Of a DNA stretch of 5,916 nt, positions 1-5,687 are shown piece by piece. This stretch comes from Acidobacteriota bacterium. GTDB lineage: Bacteria > Acidobacteriota > Terriglobia > Bryobacterales > Bryobacteraceae. Positions within the stretch are counted from its first letter, which is position 1; each line of letters opens with the position of its first letter. A model generated the notes under the pieces. It did not search any database, was not told the origin of the DNA, and saw nothing but the letters and a program-made list of their open reading frames with translations. Location: positions 1 through 5,916 of the forward strand of contig JAJYKC010000191.1 in the NCBI GenBank assembly GCA_021788955.1, written 5' to 3'. Both the position numbers and the translations under genes were made by a program.

Positions 1-315
1 CATGGTCCGGTCGAGGTGGTCGATCGCGAATTCCGTGCGGTGGTTTTTGCCTCGCAAAAACAGACGTCGGAGCTTGACGGCGCGCTTGCCAAAGACCTGA
101 AGCGACTGGGCGCCTCGGTGCTGACCGTCGGCCCCTACGCGGAAGATGCGCTGACCTGGGCCCCCAGCAGCGTGCGCGGCGAGGAACTCGCACCGTTGTT
201 CGAGATCGTGCCCGTCCAATGCGCGGCGATGCGTCTGGCGGGATGGAAAGGATTCGTCCCGGGCGAATTTCGCACCGCGGCCGCGGTCACCACAACGGAA
301 ACCGGATTTGCATGA
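1..315 (+). CDS. SIS-domain phosphosugar isomerase/aminotransferase-like protein, 3' part only
   Basis: The frame is open from the first base, so the gene starts before the window; the last 104 residues are visible. They begin with His-Gly-Pro, matching the conserved HGP motif of the second SIS domain in GlmS-type and AgaS/NagB-II-type enzymes. An alternating beta/alpha pattern follows (residues 10-50). The end resembles the family's closing helix: EELAPLFEIVPVQ at 61-73 corresponds to the GlmS segment ending IAPIFYTVPLQ, and VTTTE at 96-100 to the GlmS terminus SVTVE. SIS proteins bind and isomerise or deaminate phosphosugars in the cytoplasm. By alignment from memory, the GlmS C-terminal catalytic lysine is replaced by alanine (near residue 95). 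I therefore favour a stand-alone isomerase or deaminase over a true GlmS, but substrate and exact reaction cannot be read. The ROK kinase starts 10 nt downstream, suggesting one operon. Confidence 0.8.
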   Translation, partial: HGPVEVVDREFRAVVFASQKQTSELDGALAKDLKRLGASVLTVGPYAEDALTWAPSSVRGEELAPLFEIVPVQCAAMRLAGWKGFVPGEFRTAAAVTTTETGFA

Positions 316-325
316 GCCACGGACC

Positions 326-1213
326 ATGCCCGTAGCAGGCATCGACATCGGGGGAACGACAACCAAGCTGGCCCTGGTTGGCCCGGATGGAAAGATCGAA
401 GGACTACGCACCATCCCGACGGCGCCCGGGCACGCTCCGGAATTTGTTGATCGTGTCGCTGCCGCGTTCCATGAAGCGGGGTTGCGCGGCGACCGGGTTG
501 GTGTTGCGGTCGCGGGATTTGTGAGCGACGCACACGACGCAGTAGCCTACAATCCGAATCTTCCCTGGCTGGAGCGCTTCCCGCTGCGAACCGCTCTTGA
601 ACAAGAGCTTGGCCTCCCGGTGACGATTGAAGCGGACTCTAACGCCGCCGCCGTTGCCGAGTGGCGCTGGGGCGCGGGCGGAGGTTCAAGCCGCTTCCTT
701 TGCCTTGCCGCTGGCACGGGTCTTGGCGGAGGCATGCTAGTCGGTGGCAAACTCCTCCGCTATGCCTACGAGGGCGTAGGAGATGTCGGCCATGTGATCG
801 TCGCCCCAGGCGTCGCCCTCTGCAGTTGTGGAGGAAAAGGGTGCGCGGAGGCGCTTGTCGGCGCGAACGCCATCGCGGGACGGTTCCGGGACGCCGGCGG
901 CAGTGCCACGGATCTCCGCGACGTGATCGAACAGGCATTCGCCCGAAATCCCTTGGCCATTCGCCTCATCGAGGACGCCGGCCGCTGGCTCGGCCTTGCT
1001 CTCTCCACTCTTGCCAACATTCTCTTCCCGGACCGCATCGCCATCGCGGGCGGCCTGTCCGAGGCCGGCGACCTCCTGCTCGAACCATGCCGCGCCGTGT
1101 TTCACGAGAATGCCAGCGCATTCGCCTCCCGGTGCGCGCGCATCGTGAAAGCGGAACTCGGCTGGCGGGCCACCCTCGCCGGCGCCGGAGCTTGCGCCAC
1201 GCTCGACGCCTGA
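326..1213 (+). CDS. ROK-family sugar kinase (glucokinase/N-acetylhexosamine kinase-like)
   Basis: A 295-residue cytoplasmic kinase, usual length for a ROK enzyme without a DNA-binding domain, predicted to phosphorylate a hexose or amino sugar with ATP. In order: N-terminal phosphate-binding loop GIDIGGTTTK (5-14); catalytic Asp104 in EADSNAAAVAE; phosphate loop GTGLGGG (130-136); GDVGH (152-156) giving the zinc-ligand His156; CSCGGKGCAE (166-175), which matches the ROK zinc motif CxCGxxGCxE with Cys166, Cys168 and Cys173; and the adenosine-side AGG (241-243). The usual Glu of GE(I/L)GH is Asp153, a conservative change. No helix-turn-helix precedes the kinase fold, so this is not a NagC/Mlc-type repressor. 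The start is ambiguous: ATG 326 places the ATP loop at the expected distance but has no clear Shine-Dalgarno; TTG 308 has GGAA 7 nt upstream, adds six residues and overlaps the SIS gene by 8 nt. Specificity is unknown; the SIS neighbour hints at amino sugars. Confidence 0.92.
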   Translation: MPVAGIDIGGTTTKLALVGPDGKIEGLRTIPTAPGHAPEFVDRVAAAFHEAGLRGDRVGVAVAGFVSDAHDAVAYNPNLPWLERFPLRTALEQELGLPVTIEADSNAAAVAEWRWGAGGGSSRFLCLAAGTGLGGGMLVGGKLLRYAYEGVGDVGHVIVAPGVALCSCGGKGCAEALVGANAIAGRFRDAGGSATDLRDVIEQAFARNPLAIRLIEDAGRWLGLALSTLANILFPDRIAIAGGLSEAGDLLLEPCRAVFHENASAFASRCARIVKAELGWRATLAGAGACATLDA

Positions 1214-1214
1214 A

Positions 1215-1232
1215 GTGTCCGTTCCCGGACAC
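1215..1232. promoter_or_regulatory. Perfect 18-bp dyad, probable upstream activator site 1
   Basis: GTGTCCG-TTCC-CGGACAC: two perfect 7-bp inverted arms around a 4-base centre, beginning one base after the ROK stop codon. Its centre lies about 115 bp before the predicted +1 of the sigma-54 promoter at 1312-1328, within the usual range for an enhancer site bound by a sigma-54 activator dimer. The RNA could also fold as a hairpin, but no T-run follows, so a terminator role is less likely. The function is inferred from symmetry, position and the second copy at 1235-1252. Confidence 0.6.
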
Positions 1233-1234
1233 GC

Positions 1235-1252
1235 GCCTCCGCCTTTGGACAC
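1235..1252. promoter_or_regulatory. Degenerate second copy of the dyad, probable activator site 2
   Basis: Shifted exactly 20 bp from the first dyad. The left arm GCCTCCG matches 5 of 7 bases and the right arm TGGACAC 6 of 7, with the same 4-base spacing. A 20-bp shift is about two helical turns, placing both sites on the same DNA face. Its centre lies about 95 bp before the predicted +1. A strong plus a weak tandem site is a common arrangement for enhancer-binding proteins that oligomerise on DNA. The protein that binds here is not in the window. Confidence 0.5.
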
Positions 1253-1311
1253 TTCCCACCGGCTTCAGGGGCCATCGGCGCTGCAAATCCCTTCCAAATC
1301 AAGCCGTACAA

Positions 1312-1328
1312 TTGGCACGGTGATTGCC
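1312..1328 (+). promoter_or_regulatory. Sigma-54 (-24/-12) promoter of the ADOP permease gene
   Basis: TTGGCACGGTGATTGCC fits the RpoN consensus YTGGCACGrNNNTTGCW at every defined base except the last. The invariant GG (1314-1315) and GC (1326-1327) are separated by exactly 10 nt. With C1327 at -12, transcription should start near G1339, giving a 25-nt leader before the GTG at 1364. Two tandem dyads lie about 95 and 115 bp upstream. AATCAA at 1297-1302 with T1307 is a partial match to the IHF consensus (WATCAANNNNTTR) between the dyads and the core; that part is weak. Such a promoter is silent without an ATP-hydrolysing activator, so the permease is probably induced by a specific signal. Confidence 0.8.
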
Positions 1329-1354
1329 CCTCCTTGCGGGGATACGGATACTTC

Positions 1355-1358
1355 GGAG
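1355..1358 (+). promoter_or_regulatory. Shine-Dalgarno fixing the permease start at GTG 1364
   Basis: GGAG followed by a 5-nt spacer (AATTT) to GTG 1364. The alternative upstream in-frame TTG at 1334 lies before the predicted sigma-54 transcription start (about 1339), so it could not be translated from that transcript, and no comparable ribosome site precedes it. Confidence 0.75.
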
Positions 1359-1363
1359 AATTT

Positions 1364-3856
1364 GTGCGAACCCTACTTCAGGATCTGCGCTTCGCCTCGC
1401 GCCAGCTATGGTCATCACGAGGCTTCACGTTGCTCGCGGTTTTGACCTTGGCCCTCGGTATCGGCGCGAACATGGCCTTGTTCACGGTCATCGAAAGCGT
1501 GCTGCTCCGCCCGCTCCCCTACCCTCATTCCGACCGCCTTGTTTTCATCGGCCCGGCGACCGAGAAGCCCGGCTTCGACTCAACCTCCTGGCTCAACTAC
1601 CACGACATTAAGCAACAATCTCATCAGTTCGCCGATGTCGCCGGCTATTCGGAGGATGTGAGCGTGGTGGCCGGGAAGGACGGTTCTCAGAGTATCGTCG
1701 CCCCGCGCGTAACTCCCAATCTATTCGCTTTGCTCGGCGCACGACCGCTGCTGGGCCGCACGTTCACCGAAGCCGAAGGACAGCCGAACGGGCCGCACGT
1801 GGCCATCCTCTCCGAGGGACTCTGGCGCCAGAGTTTCAACGCGGACCCAGGTATCGTAGGCCGCACCGTCGATGTCGGCGGCCTCCCCCGAACCGTAGCC
1901 GGCGTGATGCCGGCGAGCTTCAGCTTCCCGGAGCAGATGGGGCCGGACCTTCACAAAGGACTTTGGCTTCCGCTGCAGCCGACGCCTGAGATGCAAAAGG
2001 AACGCGGCTATGACTTCTTCCAGATCCTGGCGCAGCTCCGGCCTGGAGTCACAACCGGGCAGGCCCAAGCGGAACTCGACTCGATCGCCCGGCACATCGC
2101 CAAGACCGATCCCACTCAGACCCAGGTGCACTATTTCCGCGCGTTTCCGTATCAGCAGCTACTTACCGGCAACATCCGGCCTGTTTTCTATGCCCTGGTC
2201 GCCGCGCTCGCCCTCGTACTGCTCATCGCTTGCGCGAACGTCGCGAATCTCCTCATCGCGCGGTGTCTCAGCCGTCAGCAGGAATTCGCCGTACGCGTCG
2301 CGCTCGGCGCGAGCCGGCCTCGCATGATCCGCCAGGTGCTCACCGAGGGCCTTCTCCTGAGCATTCTCGGCAGTGGACTGGGCATGGCGGTGGCGGAACT
2401 CGTACTCCTTGCTATCCGGAAACTCCCCGACGGCACCATCCCGCGCTCGGAATCGATTGCGATCCATTGGCCGACGGCTTTTGCGCTTGTCACGGCCGCC
2501 GGCCTCACGGCCATTCTGTCCTCGCTGTTTCCGGCTCTACTGGTCGCGCGCGCTGACCCGCAAACGGCCCTCCAGACCGGGGCCCGTGGCGCCGGTTCGC
2601 GCGTGGTCGGTGGCAGGCTCAGCGGATGGCTGGTAGCCGGAGAAGTCGCCTTATCGACCCTCCTCCTGGTCTGGACGGGCCTGCTGTTCCACACCCTCTG
2701 GAACCTCGAGCATACGCAACTCGGCTTCGACATCACTCGCGTCACCACGTTCACCGCGATGCCGGTGGATTCAGCCGGCTTCGCGGGGATGGCGGTATCC
2801 GAAGTCACCTCCAACGCTCCAGCATCCGTCGCTTCGACGACCTATGCTCCGATTCTCGATCGGATACGCCATGCTCCCGGCGTCGAAGCGGTAGCGTTAG
2901 CGACGGCGCCCCCGCTTTCAGGCATGGACATGCGCTCGAGTTTCACCGTCGTCGGCCGGCCTAAGGAAGAATCGCGCAACAACAACGCCCGAGTTACCGC
3001 GGTTAGCGGCGACTACGCTCGAGCCTTGCGCACGCCGGTCATACGGGGCCGCATGATCCGTGATGACGACACGGCCGCCGCTCCGTTCGTGGCCGTTATC
3101 AACCAGACGCTGGCCCGAAGGTACTTCGCGGCACGAGACCCTCTCGGCCAGCAGGTCGACCTCGGCGGAAAGGACACCGGCATGATCAAGCCTTACACGA
3201 TCGTCGGCGTCCTCGCAGACCAGACGGATGACCGCGTAGGAAGCGCCGTACAGCCGCTCATCCTGCTTCCGCAGCAGCAGATCCTGGTTACTTCGCTGTT
3301 CTACCAAGCCCTGCTAAAAACCGTGGTCAGCTTTGTCGTGAAGACACGCACCGACGTACCCGTCGCTTCCGAAATGCGCTCGATCTTCCGCGAGACGGCG
3401 CCCGGATTCGCACTTGATAACTTCCAGACCATGCGCGAAGCGATCGACCAGAATACGTTCAGCCAGCGCCTCGGCCTGTACCTTACCGGATCCTTTGCCG
3501 GACTCGCCGTGCTCATGGTTGTGGCCGGACTCTATGGCGTGCTCGCCCAACTCGTCAGTTACCGCCGCCGCGAAATCGGGATTCGCATGGCGGTTGGCGC
3601 GACACGGGGCCGCGTCGTGGGGATGGTTCTTCGGCAGGGCTCGCTCTTGATCGGCGCAGGACTCGCGGGCGGACTCGCCCTGGCGCTGGCTAGCGGACAG
3701 CTAATCCGCGGTTTCCTCTACAATGTCCAACCGGCCGATGCGCTAAGCTACACGGCGGTCGCCGCAGCCATGCTCGCCGTCGGTTCTCTCGCCTCGCTCA
3801 TCCCGGCCCGCACGGCCGCTTCTGTCGAGCCGATGCAGGCGCTTCGAGAAGGCTGA
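1364..3856 (+). CDS. ADOP-type duplicated FtsX/MacB permease (ABC transporter permease without ATPase)
   Basis: An 830-residue inner-membrane protein with two fused MacB-like permease halves. In order: amphipathic start MRTLLQDLRFASRQL typical of ADOPs; TM1 about 21-43 with ALGIGAN (30-36); first periplasmic core domain about 54-270; FtsX domain 1 about 272-400 with ANVANLLIAR and EFAVRVALGASRPRMIRQ; an extra TM about 420-445; second periplasmic domain about 450-695; FtsX domain 2 about 700-830 with EIGIRMAVGATRGR (about 737-750), ending VEPMQALREG. Around eight hydrophobic segments fit the family. MacB/FtsX relatives act by coupling ATP hydrolysis to periplasmic movement for export or signalling, but no ATPase or membrane-fusion gene is present, so this is an orphan permease and its substrate is unknown. 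The GTG start is chosen over TTG 1334 because of GGAG at 1355 and the sigma-54 promoter. The gene appears intact and monocistronic, since the next gene is convergent 20 bp away. Confidence 0.93.
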   Translation: MRTLLQDLRFASRQLWSSRGFTLLAVLTLALGIGANMALFTVIESVLLRPLPYPHSDRLVFIGPATEKPGFDSTSWLNYHDIKQQSHQFADVAGYSEDVSVVAGKDGSQSIVAPRVTPNLFALLGARPLLGRTFTEAEGQPNGPHVAILSEGLWRQSFNADPGIVGRTVDVGGLPRTVAGVMPASFSFPEQMGPDLHKGLWLPLQPTPEMQKERGYDFFQILAQLRPGVTTGQAQAELDSIARHIAKTDPTQTQVHYFRAFPYQQLLTGNIRPVFYALVAALALVLLIACANVANLLIARCLSRQQEFAVRVALGASRPRMIRQVLTEGLLLSILGSGLGMAVAELVLLAIRKLPDGTIPRSESIAIHWPTAFALVTAAGLTAILSSLFPALLVARADPQTALQTGARGAGSRVVGGRLSGWLVAGEVALSTLLLVWTGLLFHTLWNLEHTQLGFDITRVTTFTAMPVDSAGFAGMAVSEVTSNAPASVASTTYAPILDRIRHAPGVEAVALATAPPLSGMDMRSSFTVVGRPKEESRNNNARVTAVSGDYARALRTPVIRGRMIRDDDTAAAPFVAVINQTLARRYFAARDPLGQQVDLGGKDTGMIKPYTIVGVLADQTDDRVGSAVQPLILLPQQQILVTSLFYQALLKTVVSFVVKTRTDVPVASEMRSIFRETAPGFALDNFQTMREAIDQNTFSQRLGLYLTGSFAGLAVLMVVAGLYGVLAQLVSYRRREIGIRMAVGATRGRVVGMVLRQGSLLIGAGLAGGLALALASGQLIRGFLYNVQPADALSYTAVAAAMLAVGSLASLIPARTAASVEPMQALREG

Positions 3857-3876
3857 CGAGGCCCAGCGGCCGGGAT

Positions 3877-4398
3877 CTAGCGTCGCTCGCTCGAGGGCGG
3901 CACCAGTCCCTTCAGGCGCATATATACGGCCATCGTGCCGTACATCTCGTTGTCGTGCGTCACGTTGTACCATAGCAGGCCGATCCGGGAATGGTGCATG
4001 TAGCCGGAGCCCACCGTGTCCATCTGGTTGGCCGCCGTCACCGAATCATACGCCTTGTCACACTCGTCGAACGAAGCTTTTAGCGACGCCTGGATGTCGG
4101 CTTTCTTCGCGTCCGCTGCGGGCATAGCCGGTGGTTTTGCGCCCGTCAACAGCGAGCAGGCGCGCAACTGTGCACCGGTAACGTGGGTCAAAAGTTCGGA
4201 GAACGGCCGCACGTCCGGCGTCGCCTTAAAGCTGTAATCGGCTTCCGGCATCTTTTCCGCGGCGCGAAGGATGTTGTTCTTCACACGCGTGTAGGCCTGT
4301 TTGGCCTCCTCGGCAAGGTTCTGGCTGGCGTCGCCGCCCGCCGGTTGAGCCACGGCGCACGCAGCGAAAACGAGAAACGCGGGAACGAGAAGTTTCAT
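3877..4398 (-). CDS. Exported DinB/YfiT-like putative metal-binding protein
   Basis: 173 residues from ATG 4398. Residues 1-18 (MKLLVPAFLVFAACAVAQ) form a signal peptide with a likely cut after AVA or AVAQ, so the mature protein should be periplasmic. The remainder is helical and has DinB superfamily landmarks: PFSELLTHV with His72 in helix 2, HH at 135-136, and the characteristic end THDNEMYGTMAVYMRLKGLVPPSSE (in part 147-171). DinB-fold proteins are four-helix bundles that usually hold a divalent metal with three histidines. Here His72 and His148 are in place, but Met152 occupies the position where relatives usually have the His of EHYG, so metal binding may be altered. An upstream start at 4491 would put 31 poorly explained residues before the signal peptide; ATG 4398 has GAAAGG 7 nt upstream. 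The gene is convergent with the permease and divergent from the lipoprotein gene. Its role is unknown; some DinB relatives are thiol S-transferases. Confidence 0.85.
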   Translation of the reverse strand: MKLLVPAFLVFAACAVAQPAGGDASQNLAEEAKQAYTRVKNNILRAAEKMPEADYSFKATPDVRPFSELLTHVTGAQLRACSLLTGAKPPAMPAADAKKADIQASLKASFDECDKAYDSVTAANQMDTVGSGYMHHSRIGLLWYNVTHDNEMYGTMAVYMRLKGLVPPSSERR

Positions 4399-4476
4399 GT
4401 CAATGCCTTTCAGGAAGAGCATATCGAACAATGCTATGGCGCGCAGCGGCCTCGAGAGGTATCGGAAAATGAGGAA
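4399..4476. other. 78-bp divergent intergenic region
   Basis: It separates the start codons of the minus-strand DinB-like gene and the plus-strand lipoprotein gene, so it should hold both promoters. I find no convincing -35/-10 pair or -24/-12 element for either direction. A 5-bp inverted repeat AGCAT/ATGCT (4418-4422 and 4431-4435) is present, too short to call an operator. Short frames from ATG 4431 (13 codons) and ATG 4436 (14 codons) run toward the lipoprotein gene. Confidence 0.4.
4406..4411 (-). promoter_or_regulatory. Shine-Dalgarno fixing the DinB-like start at 4398
   Basis: On the minus strand GAAAGG stands 7 nt before ATG 4398. Together with the signal peptide that begins at this ATG, it rules out the longer reading from 4491 as the preferred start. 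Confidence 0.65.
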
Positions 4477-5103
4477 ATGACAACGAGACACCGGTTGGGC
4501 TTCGCCCTCGCCTTGGTCCTGGGCTTGGCAGCTTGCTCGACCGCACCGGAACAGAAGGCGGAGACGAAAGCACCATCCGCGGATCCGCCGCGTACCGGCC
4601 GGGAAGCCTTCCAGGAAATGTACGTGCAGGCACGAGGCTGGGCGGTCGACGCGCAGCCGCTGCAGGTGCAGAGCTACAACCTAAAGCAAATGAAATCGGA
4701 AGGGGGCAAGGCTGCCGTCTGGCGAGCAACATTCGTCTCTGCATCACTCCACCAGGCGCGCACTTATACTTGGTCCGCAGTCGAAGACACCGACAACGAT
4801 CTCCACAGGGGCGTTTCGGCTGCCCCTGCCGAGTCATGGTCCGGACCCGGCACCCAGCGCCCATTTCTGCTGGCCGCCCTGCGCAGCGATACCGACAAGG
4901 CGCTGGAGGCCGCTCTGGCGAGAAAGGAGACCCAAGAGTACGTGAAGAAGAATCCCGGCCAACCCGTGATGTACCTGCTCGAGGCGACCGACCGTTTCCC
5001 AGACCCGGCGTGGCGTGTCGTCTGGGGCGACTCCATCGCCACCAGCGGCTACTCGGTTTTCGTCGATGCCTCCACGGGGCAGTTTTTGAAGAGAACGTTT
5101 TAG
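4477..5103 (+). CDS. Putative lipoprotein with PepSY-like C-terminal region
   Basis: 208 residues. The N-terminus MTTRHRLGFALALVLGLAAC is a lipoprotein signal: positive start, hydrophobic core, lipobox LAAC with Cys20. After a Pro/Lys/Ala-rich linker (21-40) comes a soluble domain. Its end, AWRVVWGDSIATSGYSVFVDASTG (178-201, shown as two halves of one strand-turn-strand), resembles the closing beta hairpin of PepSY-type modules, where a Trp-Arg-Val strand is followed by an Asp-x-x-Thr-Gly turn. I do not recognise a specific family. PepSY-like domains are associated with peptidase inhibition or cell-surface functions, but that is only a hint here. The anchor point (inner or outer membrane) cannot be fixed; residues after Cys20 are Ser-Thr, with no Asp at +2. 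The start at ATG 4477 is supported by the lipobox, but its Shine-Dalgarno (GAGG, 4471-4474) sits only 2 nt away, unusually close. The methyltransferase-like gene follows after 23 nt, probably in the same transcript. Confidence 0.75.
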   Translation: MTTRHRLGFALALVLGLAACSTAPEQKAETKAPSADPPRTGREAFQEMYVQARGWAVDAQPLQVQSYNLKQMKSEGGKAAVWRATFVSASLHQARTYTWSAVEDTDNDLHRGVSAAPAESWSGPGTQRPFLLAALRSDTDKALEAALARKETQEYVKKNPGQPVMYLLEATDRFPDPAWRVVWGDSIATSGYSVFVDASTGQFLKRTF

Positions 5104-5126
5104 GCCGTGTTCGCTTCAGCGAATCC

Positions 5127-5687
5127 ATGAAATTCCCCCACGCATGCTTGTACCGCTACCTGGCGCCGGTCTTGCTCACCACAACGTTCGCGGCCCTGGG
5201 CCAGCAGCCGATCCCGGAGCGCTATCCGGACGTTCCGTTCGTTTCCACTCCACAGCCCATCATTGACCAGATGCTTTCGCTGGCCGGTATCCATCCGGGG
5301 GACCGACTGGTGGACCTCGGCTCCGGCGACGGCCGCATCGTCATTACCGCCGCCAAACGCTACGGCATTGACGCGGTTGGTGTCGAAATCAACCCTGCGC
5401 TTGTCCGCCAAGCCCGGGCAAACGCCGCCGCAGCAGGTGTCACAGCCAAAGCGACGTTCGTCGAGGGAGACCTGTTTGACTACGACCTAAGGAAGGCCAC
5501 CGTGGTCACCATCTTCCTCCTGCCCGGAATCAACATGCGCCTCAAGCCGAAACTACTGAAGGAATTGCAACCCGGTGCCCGCATCGTCTCCCATCGGTTC
5601 GACATGGGCCTAAACTGGCCTCCGGAGAAAACGGAGGTTGTTTTGGGCGAGCCTATCTATCTCTGGACCATCCCAAAGCGCCCCTGA
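5127..5687 (+). CDS. Class I SAM-dependent methyltransferase-fold protein with signal peptide
   Basis: 186 residues. Residues 1-25 look like a signal peptide: Lys2 and Arg10, hydrophobic LAPVLLTTTFAALG, then QQ. DVPFVSTPQPIIDQML (35-50) leads into the Rossmann core: motif I LVDLGSGDGRI (61-71), acidic motif II VGVEIN with Glu87 expected to hold the SAM ribose, helix NPALVRQARANA, then EGDLFDYDL (113-121), and motif IV region VVTIFLLPGINMRLKPKLL (126-144). The order and spacing are normal for class I methyltransferases and the active-site loop is intact. The family is known mainly from such short proteins, several with exported N-termini; the substrate is unknown. If it is exported, SAM supply outside the cytoplasm is unexplained, unless the N-terminus is an uncleaved membrane anchor or the fold has another use. 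The ATG has no clear Shine-Dalgarno and lies 23 nt after the lipoprotein stop, so coupled translation is possible. Confidence 0.85.
   Translation: MKFPHACLYRYLAPVLLTTTFAALGQQPIPERYPDVPFVSTPQPIIDQMLSLAGIHPGDRLVDLGSGDGRIVITAAKRYGIDAVGVEINPALVRQARANAAAAGVTAKATFVEGDLFDYDLRKATVVTIFLLPGINMRLKPKLLKELQPGARIVSHRFDMGLNWPPEKTEVVLGEPIYLWTIPKRP
5619..5645 (+). terminator. Terminator-like hairpin inside the methyltransferase 3' end
   Basis: CCTCCG (5619-5624) and CGGAGG (5632-5637) pair perfectly around GAGAAAA. Two possible G·U pairs extend the stem below, and the T-rich TTGTTTT (5638-5644) follows. It lies within the coding sequence about 40 nt before the stop, so it may simply reflect codon content. 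No other terminator candidate follows this gene. Confidence 0.25.

Follow-up and report, generated by a model that had tools for sequence, protein, structure and literature searches.

A predicted sigma-54-dependent control region with tandem activator sites ahead of an ATPase-less ADOP permease gene in Acidobacteriota

Genes and control elements of the locus

The window, by which we mean the whole 5,916-nucleotide stretch of acidobacterial DNA analysed here, opened with the end of an unassigned gene, followed by genes for a ROK-family sugar kinase and an ADOP permease (Table 1). The permease scored 783.3 bits against TIGR03434 (ADOP), above the curated cut-off of 622.3, and a Pfam scan gave no ABC_tran match in it, so that it lacked the fused N-terminal ABC ATPase of the MacB type. 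Escherichia coli MacB has its own ATPase domain, whereas ADOP comprises two permease halves with no ATPase domain. Reading the family name of TIGR03434, we take ADOP to be an orphan permease, with no ATPase partner encoded nearby; a motif-pair search for ABC ATPases, positive at five of five operon loci used as a control, detected no pair either in the window or across the DNA available for 23 permease orthologue loci. Downstream of the permease lay genes for a DinB-like protein (minus strand), a small unassigned product and a methyltransferase. The methyltransferase (5127-5687) resembled the archaeal protein-lysine methyltransferase model NF041081, with a score below its cut-off, and sat within a long TTG-started frame from 4533.

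Table 1. Features of the kinase-permease interval and the two flanking genes in window coordinates
Feature	Position	Strand	Basis or remark
ROK-family sugar kinase	317..1213	+	Pfam PF00480, E 2e-52; upstream neighbour
Outer 9-bp inverted repeat, GAAGTGTCC (1212-1220) / GGACACTTC (1247-1255)	1212..1255	.	brackets both activator sites
Putative activator site 1 (UAS), GTGTCCGTTCCCGGACAC, perfect dyad GTGTCCG-N4-CGGACAC	1215..1232	+	conserved in orthologues
Putative activator site 2, degenerate dyad, strong right half GGACAC	1235..1252	+	20 bp from site 1
Predicted -24/-12 sigma-54 promoter TGGCACGGTGATTGC (GG-N10-GC)	1313..1327	+	position conserved
Expected transcription start	1338..1339	+	inferred from -12 element
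Shine-Dalgarno-like GGAG	1355..1358	+	read from sequence
Permease start codon GTG	1364-1366	+	read from sequence
ADOP permease, 830 aa	1364..3856	+	two MacB_PCD and two FtsX stretches (PF12704, PF02687)

A first-pass annotation, made from the letters of the window, had described an 18-bp perfect dyad, a second degenerate dyad exactly 20 bp on, a -24/-12 element with 10-nt GG-to-GC spacing, and a GGAG and GTG ahead of the permease, and all of these were found where it had placed them. The first dyad, GTGTCCGTTCCCGGACAC, was an exact 18-bp dyad with a 4-nt spacer, separated from the ROK kinase stop codon by one base. The second carried three mismatches to the dyad pattern and started exactly 20 bp after the start of the first. 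At up to three mismatches the pattern matched three times in the window, the second dyad included, against 0.52 expected, a count reached by four of 200 shuffles. The promoter-like element TGGCACGGTGATTGC, which began 61 bp past the end of the 36-bp tandem site, was the sole match without mismatch to TGGCACGN4TTGC in the window; with three mismatches allowed, 22 matches were found against 23.0 expected, which is chance level, so a -24/-12 match alone is weak evidence. No sigma-70-like promoter was found in the window, where 1.1 were expected by chance.

Tandem dyads upstream of permease orthologues

Scanning genome contigs for the permease yielded 23 relatives (58-96% identical) from Acidobacteria, Acidobacteriales, Acidobacteriaceae, Terriglobia, Bryobacterales, Terracidiphilus and Sulfotelmatobacter; membership of Acidobacteriota was confirmed for the last three names. 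The upstream regions compared comprised the window and 22 orthologues (n = 23), picked by permease homology alone; L017 was left out as its upstream region was missing. Loss of the dyads in orthologous upstream regions had been named beforehand as a finding that would count against the first-pass reading, and tandem dyads at 20-21 bp were present in 16 of the 23, each followed by a TGG-N10-GC element 61-76 bp beyond the pair (16/16). Since the window, L001, L002 and L003 are near relatives, these 16 regions amount to about 13 independent ones. The pair scored above all 300 shuffles in 13 of the 23 regions, was matched by three of 300 shuffles in L005 and L018, and lay at 21 bp in L007. Across spacings of 8 to 44, the maximum fell at 20 bp (12 of 20 non-redundant regions with a score of at least 16), followed by spacing 21 with eight. 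Judged by comparison across these upstream regions, the tandem pair is in excess of chance. In the alignment of the window with L001, L002 and L003, invariant columns made up 33 of 38 in the dyads and 13 of 15 in the promoter, against 39 of 84 in the spacer; the nearest relative, L001 (genome G001), had a 96% identical permease and an almost identical control region. A supported pair was absent from seven of the 23 regions (L006, L008, L009, L011, L015, L019 and L020), although L006 retained one good single dyad, and at least L019 (G008) and L020 (G210) come from genomes that have the candidate regulator described below.

Recurrence of the site across related genomes

Enrichment of the site was assessed in the genomes of relatives. 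In ten genomes the exact dyad occurred at 10 places in six genomes, against three matches in all for a reversed control pattern. A TGG-N10-GC element flanked each of the 10 places on one side, and each also had a weaker partner dyad, matching at 7-10 of 12 positions, at a spacing of 20-21 bp. Their targets, translated at seven of the 10 places, were eight ADOP genes, one HlyD-type adaptor (L033) and one short protein (L028) whose relatives match Recombinase weakly. Five of the eight ADOP targets were orthologues of the window's permease (contigs of L001-L004 and L022), and the other three were L024 and L025, which are mutual orthologues, and L032.

The first-pass annotation had suggested that the dyad motif could define a regulon across the genome. 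The recurrence of the tandem site ahead of pump genes largely upholds the idea, but the exact 18-mer proved too strict because most members are degenerate. As a genome-wide marker the exact dyad by itself was also rejected as too noisy: it matched in 82 of 200 genomes of the class, and the reversed control was common there too, one genome having as many as 328 matches. Among 30 places opened from this sample, eight combined a promoter-like site with a following ADOP or HlyD gene (L044, L046, L051-L055 and L063), one preceded a TolC-type gene (L049) and one a PadR gene (L048), and the other 20 were mostly chance-like. The reversed control ACAGGCNNNNGCCTGT was present in 150, 328 and 28 copies in G111, G135 and G039, respectively; these copies belong to an unrelated family of palindromic repeats.

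From an alignment (A1) of 26 sites including the window's, we built a model of the tandem site that used sequence only. Because selection for A1 had mostly drawn on places followed by a promoter-like site at 30-95 bp, we base our tallies on places held out from training or on orthologues picked by permease homology alone. The model was run on 12 genomes with at most 150 candidates scored per genome (G009:C101:9082-9111 was left out), and ADOP or HlyD genes were called by tblastn (E 1e-4) on the same strand in the 1.5 kb that followed. This opened 84 distinct places at E<=1, of which 43 had E<0.1; 33 of these 43 had TGG-N10-GC at 58-88 bp and 33 had ADOP or HlyD within 1.5 kb. Strict hold-out, removing the training sites with their orthologues and near copies, left 38 places at E<0.3: 22 had the promoter (58-88 bp) and 16 did not, 21 had ADOP or HlyD and 17 did not, and 14 had both. 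Including G002:C503 and G003:C200:38900, orthologues of a training site, gave 40 places, 24 with promoter, 23 with ADOP or HlyD and 16 with both. On the first strand, a promoter fell in the 48-78 bp window at 21 of the 38 held-out places, against one to five in sixteen other windows of equal size. For comparison, 40 ADOP genes of 2.5 kb in the 5.5 Mb of G001 give an estimated chance of about 1-2% that a random 1.5-kb stretch has one on the right strand. The single model match in G006 was at chance level (E 0.24) and lacked a promoter.

In a second sample, 80 genomes of the class with 86 of the 224-5,367 candidates in each genome scored, 40 places at E<=0.05 emerged, spread over 21 genomes; 30 were opened and 29 of these were held out. 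Promoters were found at 16 of the 29, ADOP or HlyD genes at 16 and both at 10, and three further places, each with the promoter, preceded genes for TolC-type outer membrane efflux proteins (PF02321). The 48-78 bp window held a promoter at 20 of the 30 places, against zero to four in seventeen other windows. The predicted enrichment of the dyads near other -24/-12 sites was thus borne out in relatives by the held-out places of both samples. The predicted enrichment before ADOP genes also appeared in both, but the targets proved wider than ADOP genes, extending to adaptor-ABC-ADOP operons, TolC-type channels and LytTR response regulators.

Dyad-to-promoter distances (46 values) clustered in two peaks, at 60-64 bp and 68-77 bp; two values were larger. 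These distances suggested placement on one face of the helix, but a Rayleigh test favoured no period near 10.5 (12 and 13 were higher), and because orthologous places were counted repeatedly and the test is unspecific, helical phasing is left unclaimed.

A candidate activator encoded in a pump operon

In G186, such a site headed an operon encoding HlyD, an ABC ATPase, ADOP, a second ABC ATPase, an NtrC-type response regulator and a histidine kinase. The regulator (P0001 family) comprised a receiver domain (PF00072), a sigma-54 activation domain (PF00158) and a Fis-type HTH (PF02954). Orthologues were identified in 11 of 12 other genomes (58-69% identical), single in 10 (59-69%) and twofold in G008 (64% and 58%), and sat in clusters similar to the G186 operon, often also with a TolC channel. 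No P0001 orthologue was found in G006, where the best match by E-value was 45% identical; this is the genome of L008, whose ADOP gene is without dyads. The tandem site lay upstream on the same strand at nine of the 12 regulator loci, in G008:C57 as a TGTCCA variant, and at the other three (G001, G209 and G210) the contig end was reached first. Seven of the nine had TGG-N10-GC 72-75 bp on; CGG or AGG replaced TGG in the other two. The regulator's own operon in the near relative G002 had a site (TGTCCCCCGGCGTACA) weaker than the window's. Asp54 and the HTH residues LGLSR and YRR were invariant in 13 of 13 regulators, and the recognition helix was near-identical. The sigma-54-contact loop read GAFTDA in all 13, not the textbook GAFTGA, of which GAFTDA is a tolerated natural variant. 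RpoN (sigma-54) was encoded in 12 of 12 relatives, G006 included.

Across the 80 genomes of the second sample (at most 21 regulator candidates scored per genome; model matches at E<=0.05), the site was seen in 18 of 46 genomes with the regulator versus three of 34 without it (Fisher p 0.002, kinship ignored). Of the three without a detected regulator, G040 and G071 had no efflux genes at the match, although G071 had TGG-N10-GC at 74 bp; G077 had two convincing sites with promoter and efflux gene, and the regulator was not found among the 21 of its 83 candidates that were scored. From this placement and co-occurrence in sequence, the activator is probably a P0001-family NtrC-type response regulator encoded within the pump operon.

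Proposed mechanism and alternative readings

The first-pass proposal of a sigma-54 control region ahead of an ATPase-less permease is supported by the conserved tandem site and the constrained promoter position in relatives. We put a probability of roughly 0.85 on 1214-1363 being an enhancer-dependent sigma-54 control region, at which a P0001-family regulator, presumably also encoded in the window's own genome, would act on two tandem dyads of the kind that also heads the regulator's operon. The histidine kinase encoded beside it presumably phosphorylates the dimeric NtrC-type regulator, which would then bind the two dyads 20 bp apart (1215-1252). Its AAA+ domain would reach over about 61 bp of looped DNA and open the promoter of the sigma-54 RNA polymerase at 1313-1327. 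As the regulator's operon starts with a like site, scattered ADOP genes, the window's included, may be further members of its regulon. Guessing from the kinds of gene targeted, the inducing signal might be a toxic compound or stress on the envelope.

Of the alternatives, a real tandem site and promoter bound by a different NtrC-type activator of the same genomes fares best, at odds that we consider low. Each genome had 7-20 regulator matches at E<=1e-60, which leaves room for binding by another activator; the sites of G077 would also fit this reading, as would the G008:C57 clade (58% identical), which pairs a TGTCCA..TGGACA site with its own regulator. It would leave unexplained, however, why the P0001 family is encoded behind such a site at most of its loci, why the site profile follows the regulator across the 80 genomes, and why G006 is without both regulator and dyad. 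In that second clade the tandem TGTCCA..TGGACA (L115 12607-12642, equivalent to G008:C57:142606-142641) lay ahead of ADOP, regulator and kinase genes, which suggests a diverged parallel regulon.

Less probable than control by another activator is that the dyad serves the ROK kinase gene, which ends at 1213, as a terminator or RNA hairpin. The dyad starts 2 bp past the last base of the stop codon, and folding of the RNA is possible (-20.7 kcal/mol, z -1.93), with seven of 200 shuffles folding equally well. We rejected the terminator since no T-run follows the dyad and the terminator scan has no entry for it; moreover, the tandem site persists in distant orthologues despite flanks unlike the window's, its distance to TGG-N10-GC is constrained, and bases at the dyad centre vary. 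PadR regulators are often found near ADOP genes, and dyads suit many dimeric regulators, one UAS-like site even preceding a PadR gene (L048), but repressor operators (e.g., PadR-type) on an ordinary sigma-70 promoter are the least credible reading of all, given the failure to find a sigma-70-like site in the window, the conservation of TGG-N10-GC at a constrained distance and the enhancer-like position of the sites far upstream of the expected start.

Comparison with known systems

Sigma-54 promoters with enhancer sites for NtrC-family activators are known from NtrC/glnA, ZraR/zraP and PspF. The predicted system resembles these in its upstream tandem dyads, GG-N10-GC promoter and AAA+ response regulator with Fis-type HTH, and in that the regulator apparently controls its own operon. 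It differs in the site sequence, in its ADOP, HlyD/MacA and TolC-type efflux targets and in the loop GAFTDA. Passages of a 2025 computational survey predict sigma-54 control for COG0577/COG1136 ABC permeases and ATPases, covering FtsX/MacB-type permeases in gamma-Proteobacteria, Opitutia and Bacteroidia (PMC12316311); the string 'acidobacteri' is absent from its main text, and those passages give no activator or activator site for these genes. As in MacAB-TolC, described in passages of a MacB review (PMC5985334), an adaptor, a MacB-type permease fold and a TolC-type channel recur among the targets here; the terms 'sigma' and 'NtrC' were not found in the main text of that review. Passages of the Solibacter genome paper that discuss sigma E hold no statement on sigma-54 (PMC3174227). 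No literature on ADOP regulation or ATPase partners was found among open-licence PubMed Central papers. We thus predict an efflux regulon of a known kind, of which the particular regulon, site and regulator were not found described in that open-licence literature.

Predicted regulon

Judging by the genes behind the site, the regulon appears to combine a central efflux operon with genes for scattered ADOP permeases, TolC-type channels and LytTR response regulators. At least 15 ADOP genes were found in 11 of the 12 genomes searched and three in the other. ATPases encoded in the operon loci, together with the failure to find any in the DNA searched at the 23 permease loci, make it plausible that the operon's ATPases serve orphan permeases. 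We therefore offer, as a tentative idea that is somewhat likelier to be wrong than right, that orphan ADOP permeases are interchangeable membrane subunits of one pump system. The sigma-54 activator would switch them on together with the operon supplying ABC ATPases, the HlyD/MacA adaptor and often TolC, and tripartite pumps of varied specificity would be assembled in trans. Now that the binding site is defined, an activator and kinase are proposed and targets are listed, the regulation and ATPase partners of ADOP become testable.

LytTR response regulators were encoded behind the site at L121 (1699-2478) and L142 (1821-2600), so the regulon may feed a second two-component system. Less certain single targets were a DUF4097 protein (L144) and a STAS protein (L166). 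The gene behind a dyad with TGGCCCCGTGTTTGC in L048 (1501-2062) encoded a regulator of the PadR family (PF03551), which may connect the site with PadR control of ADOP genes. L129, L159 and L136 encoded similar proteins of 142-151 aa starting MAYFER, with TGG-N10-GC 84-85 bp after the tandem site, and the two scanned (L159 and L136) gave weak matches to the Recombinase domain PF07508.
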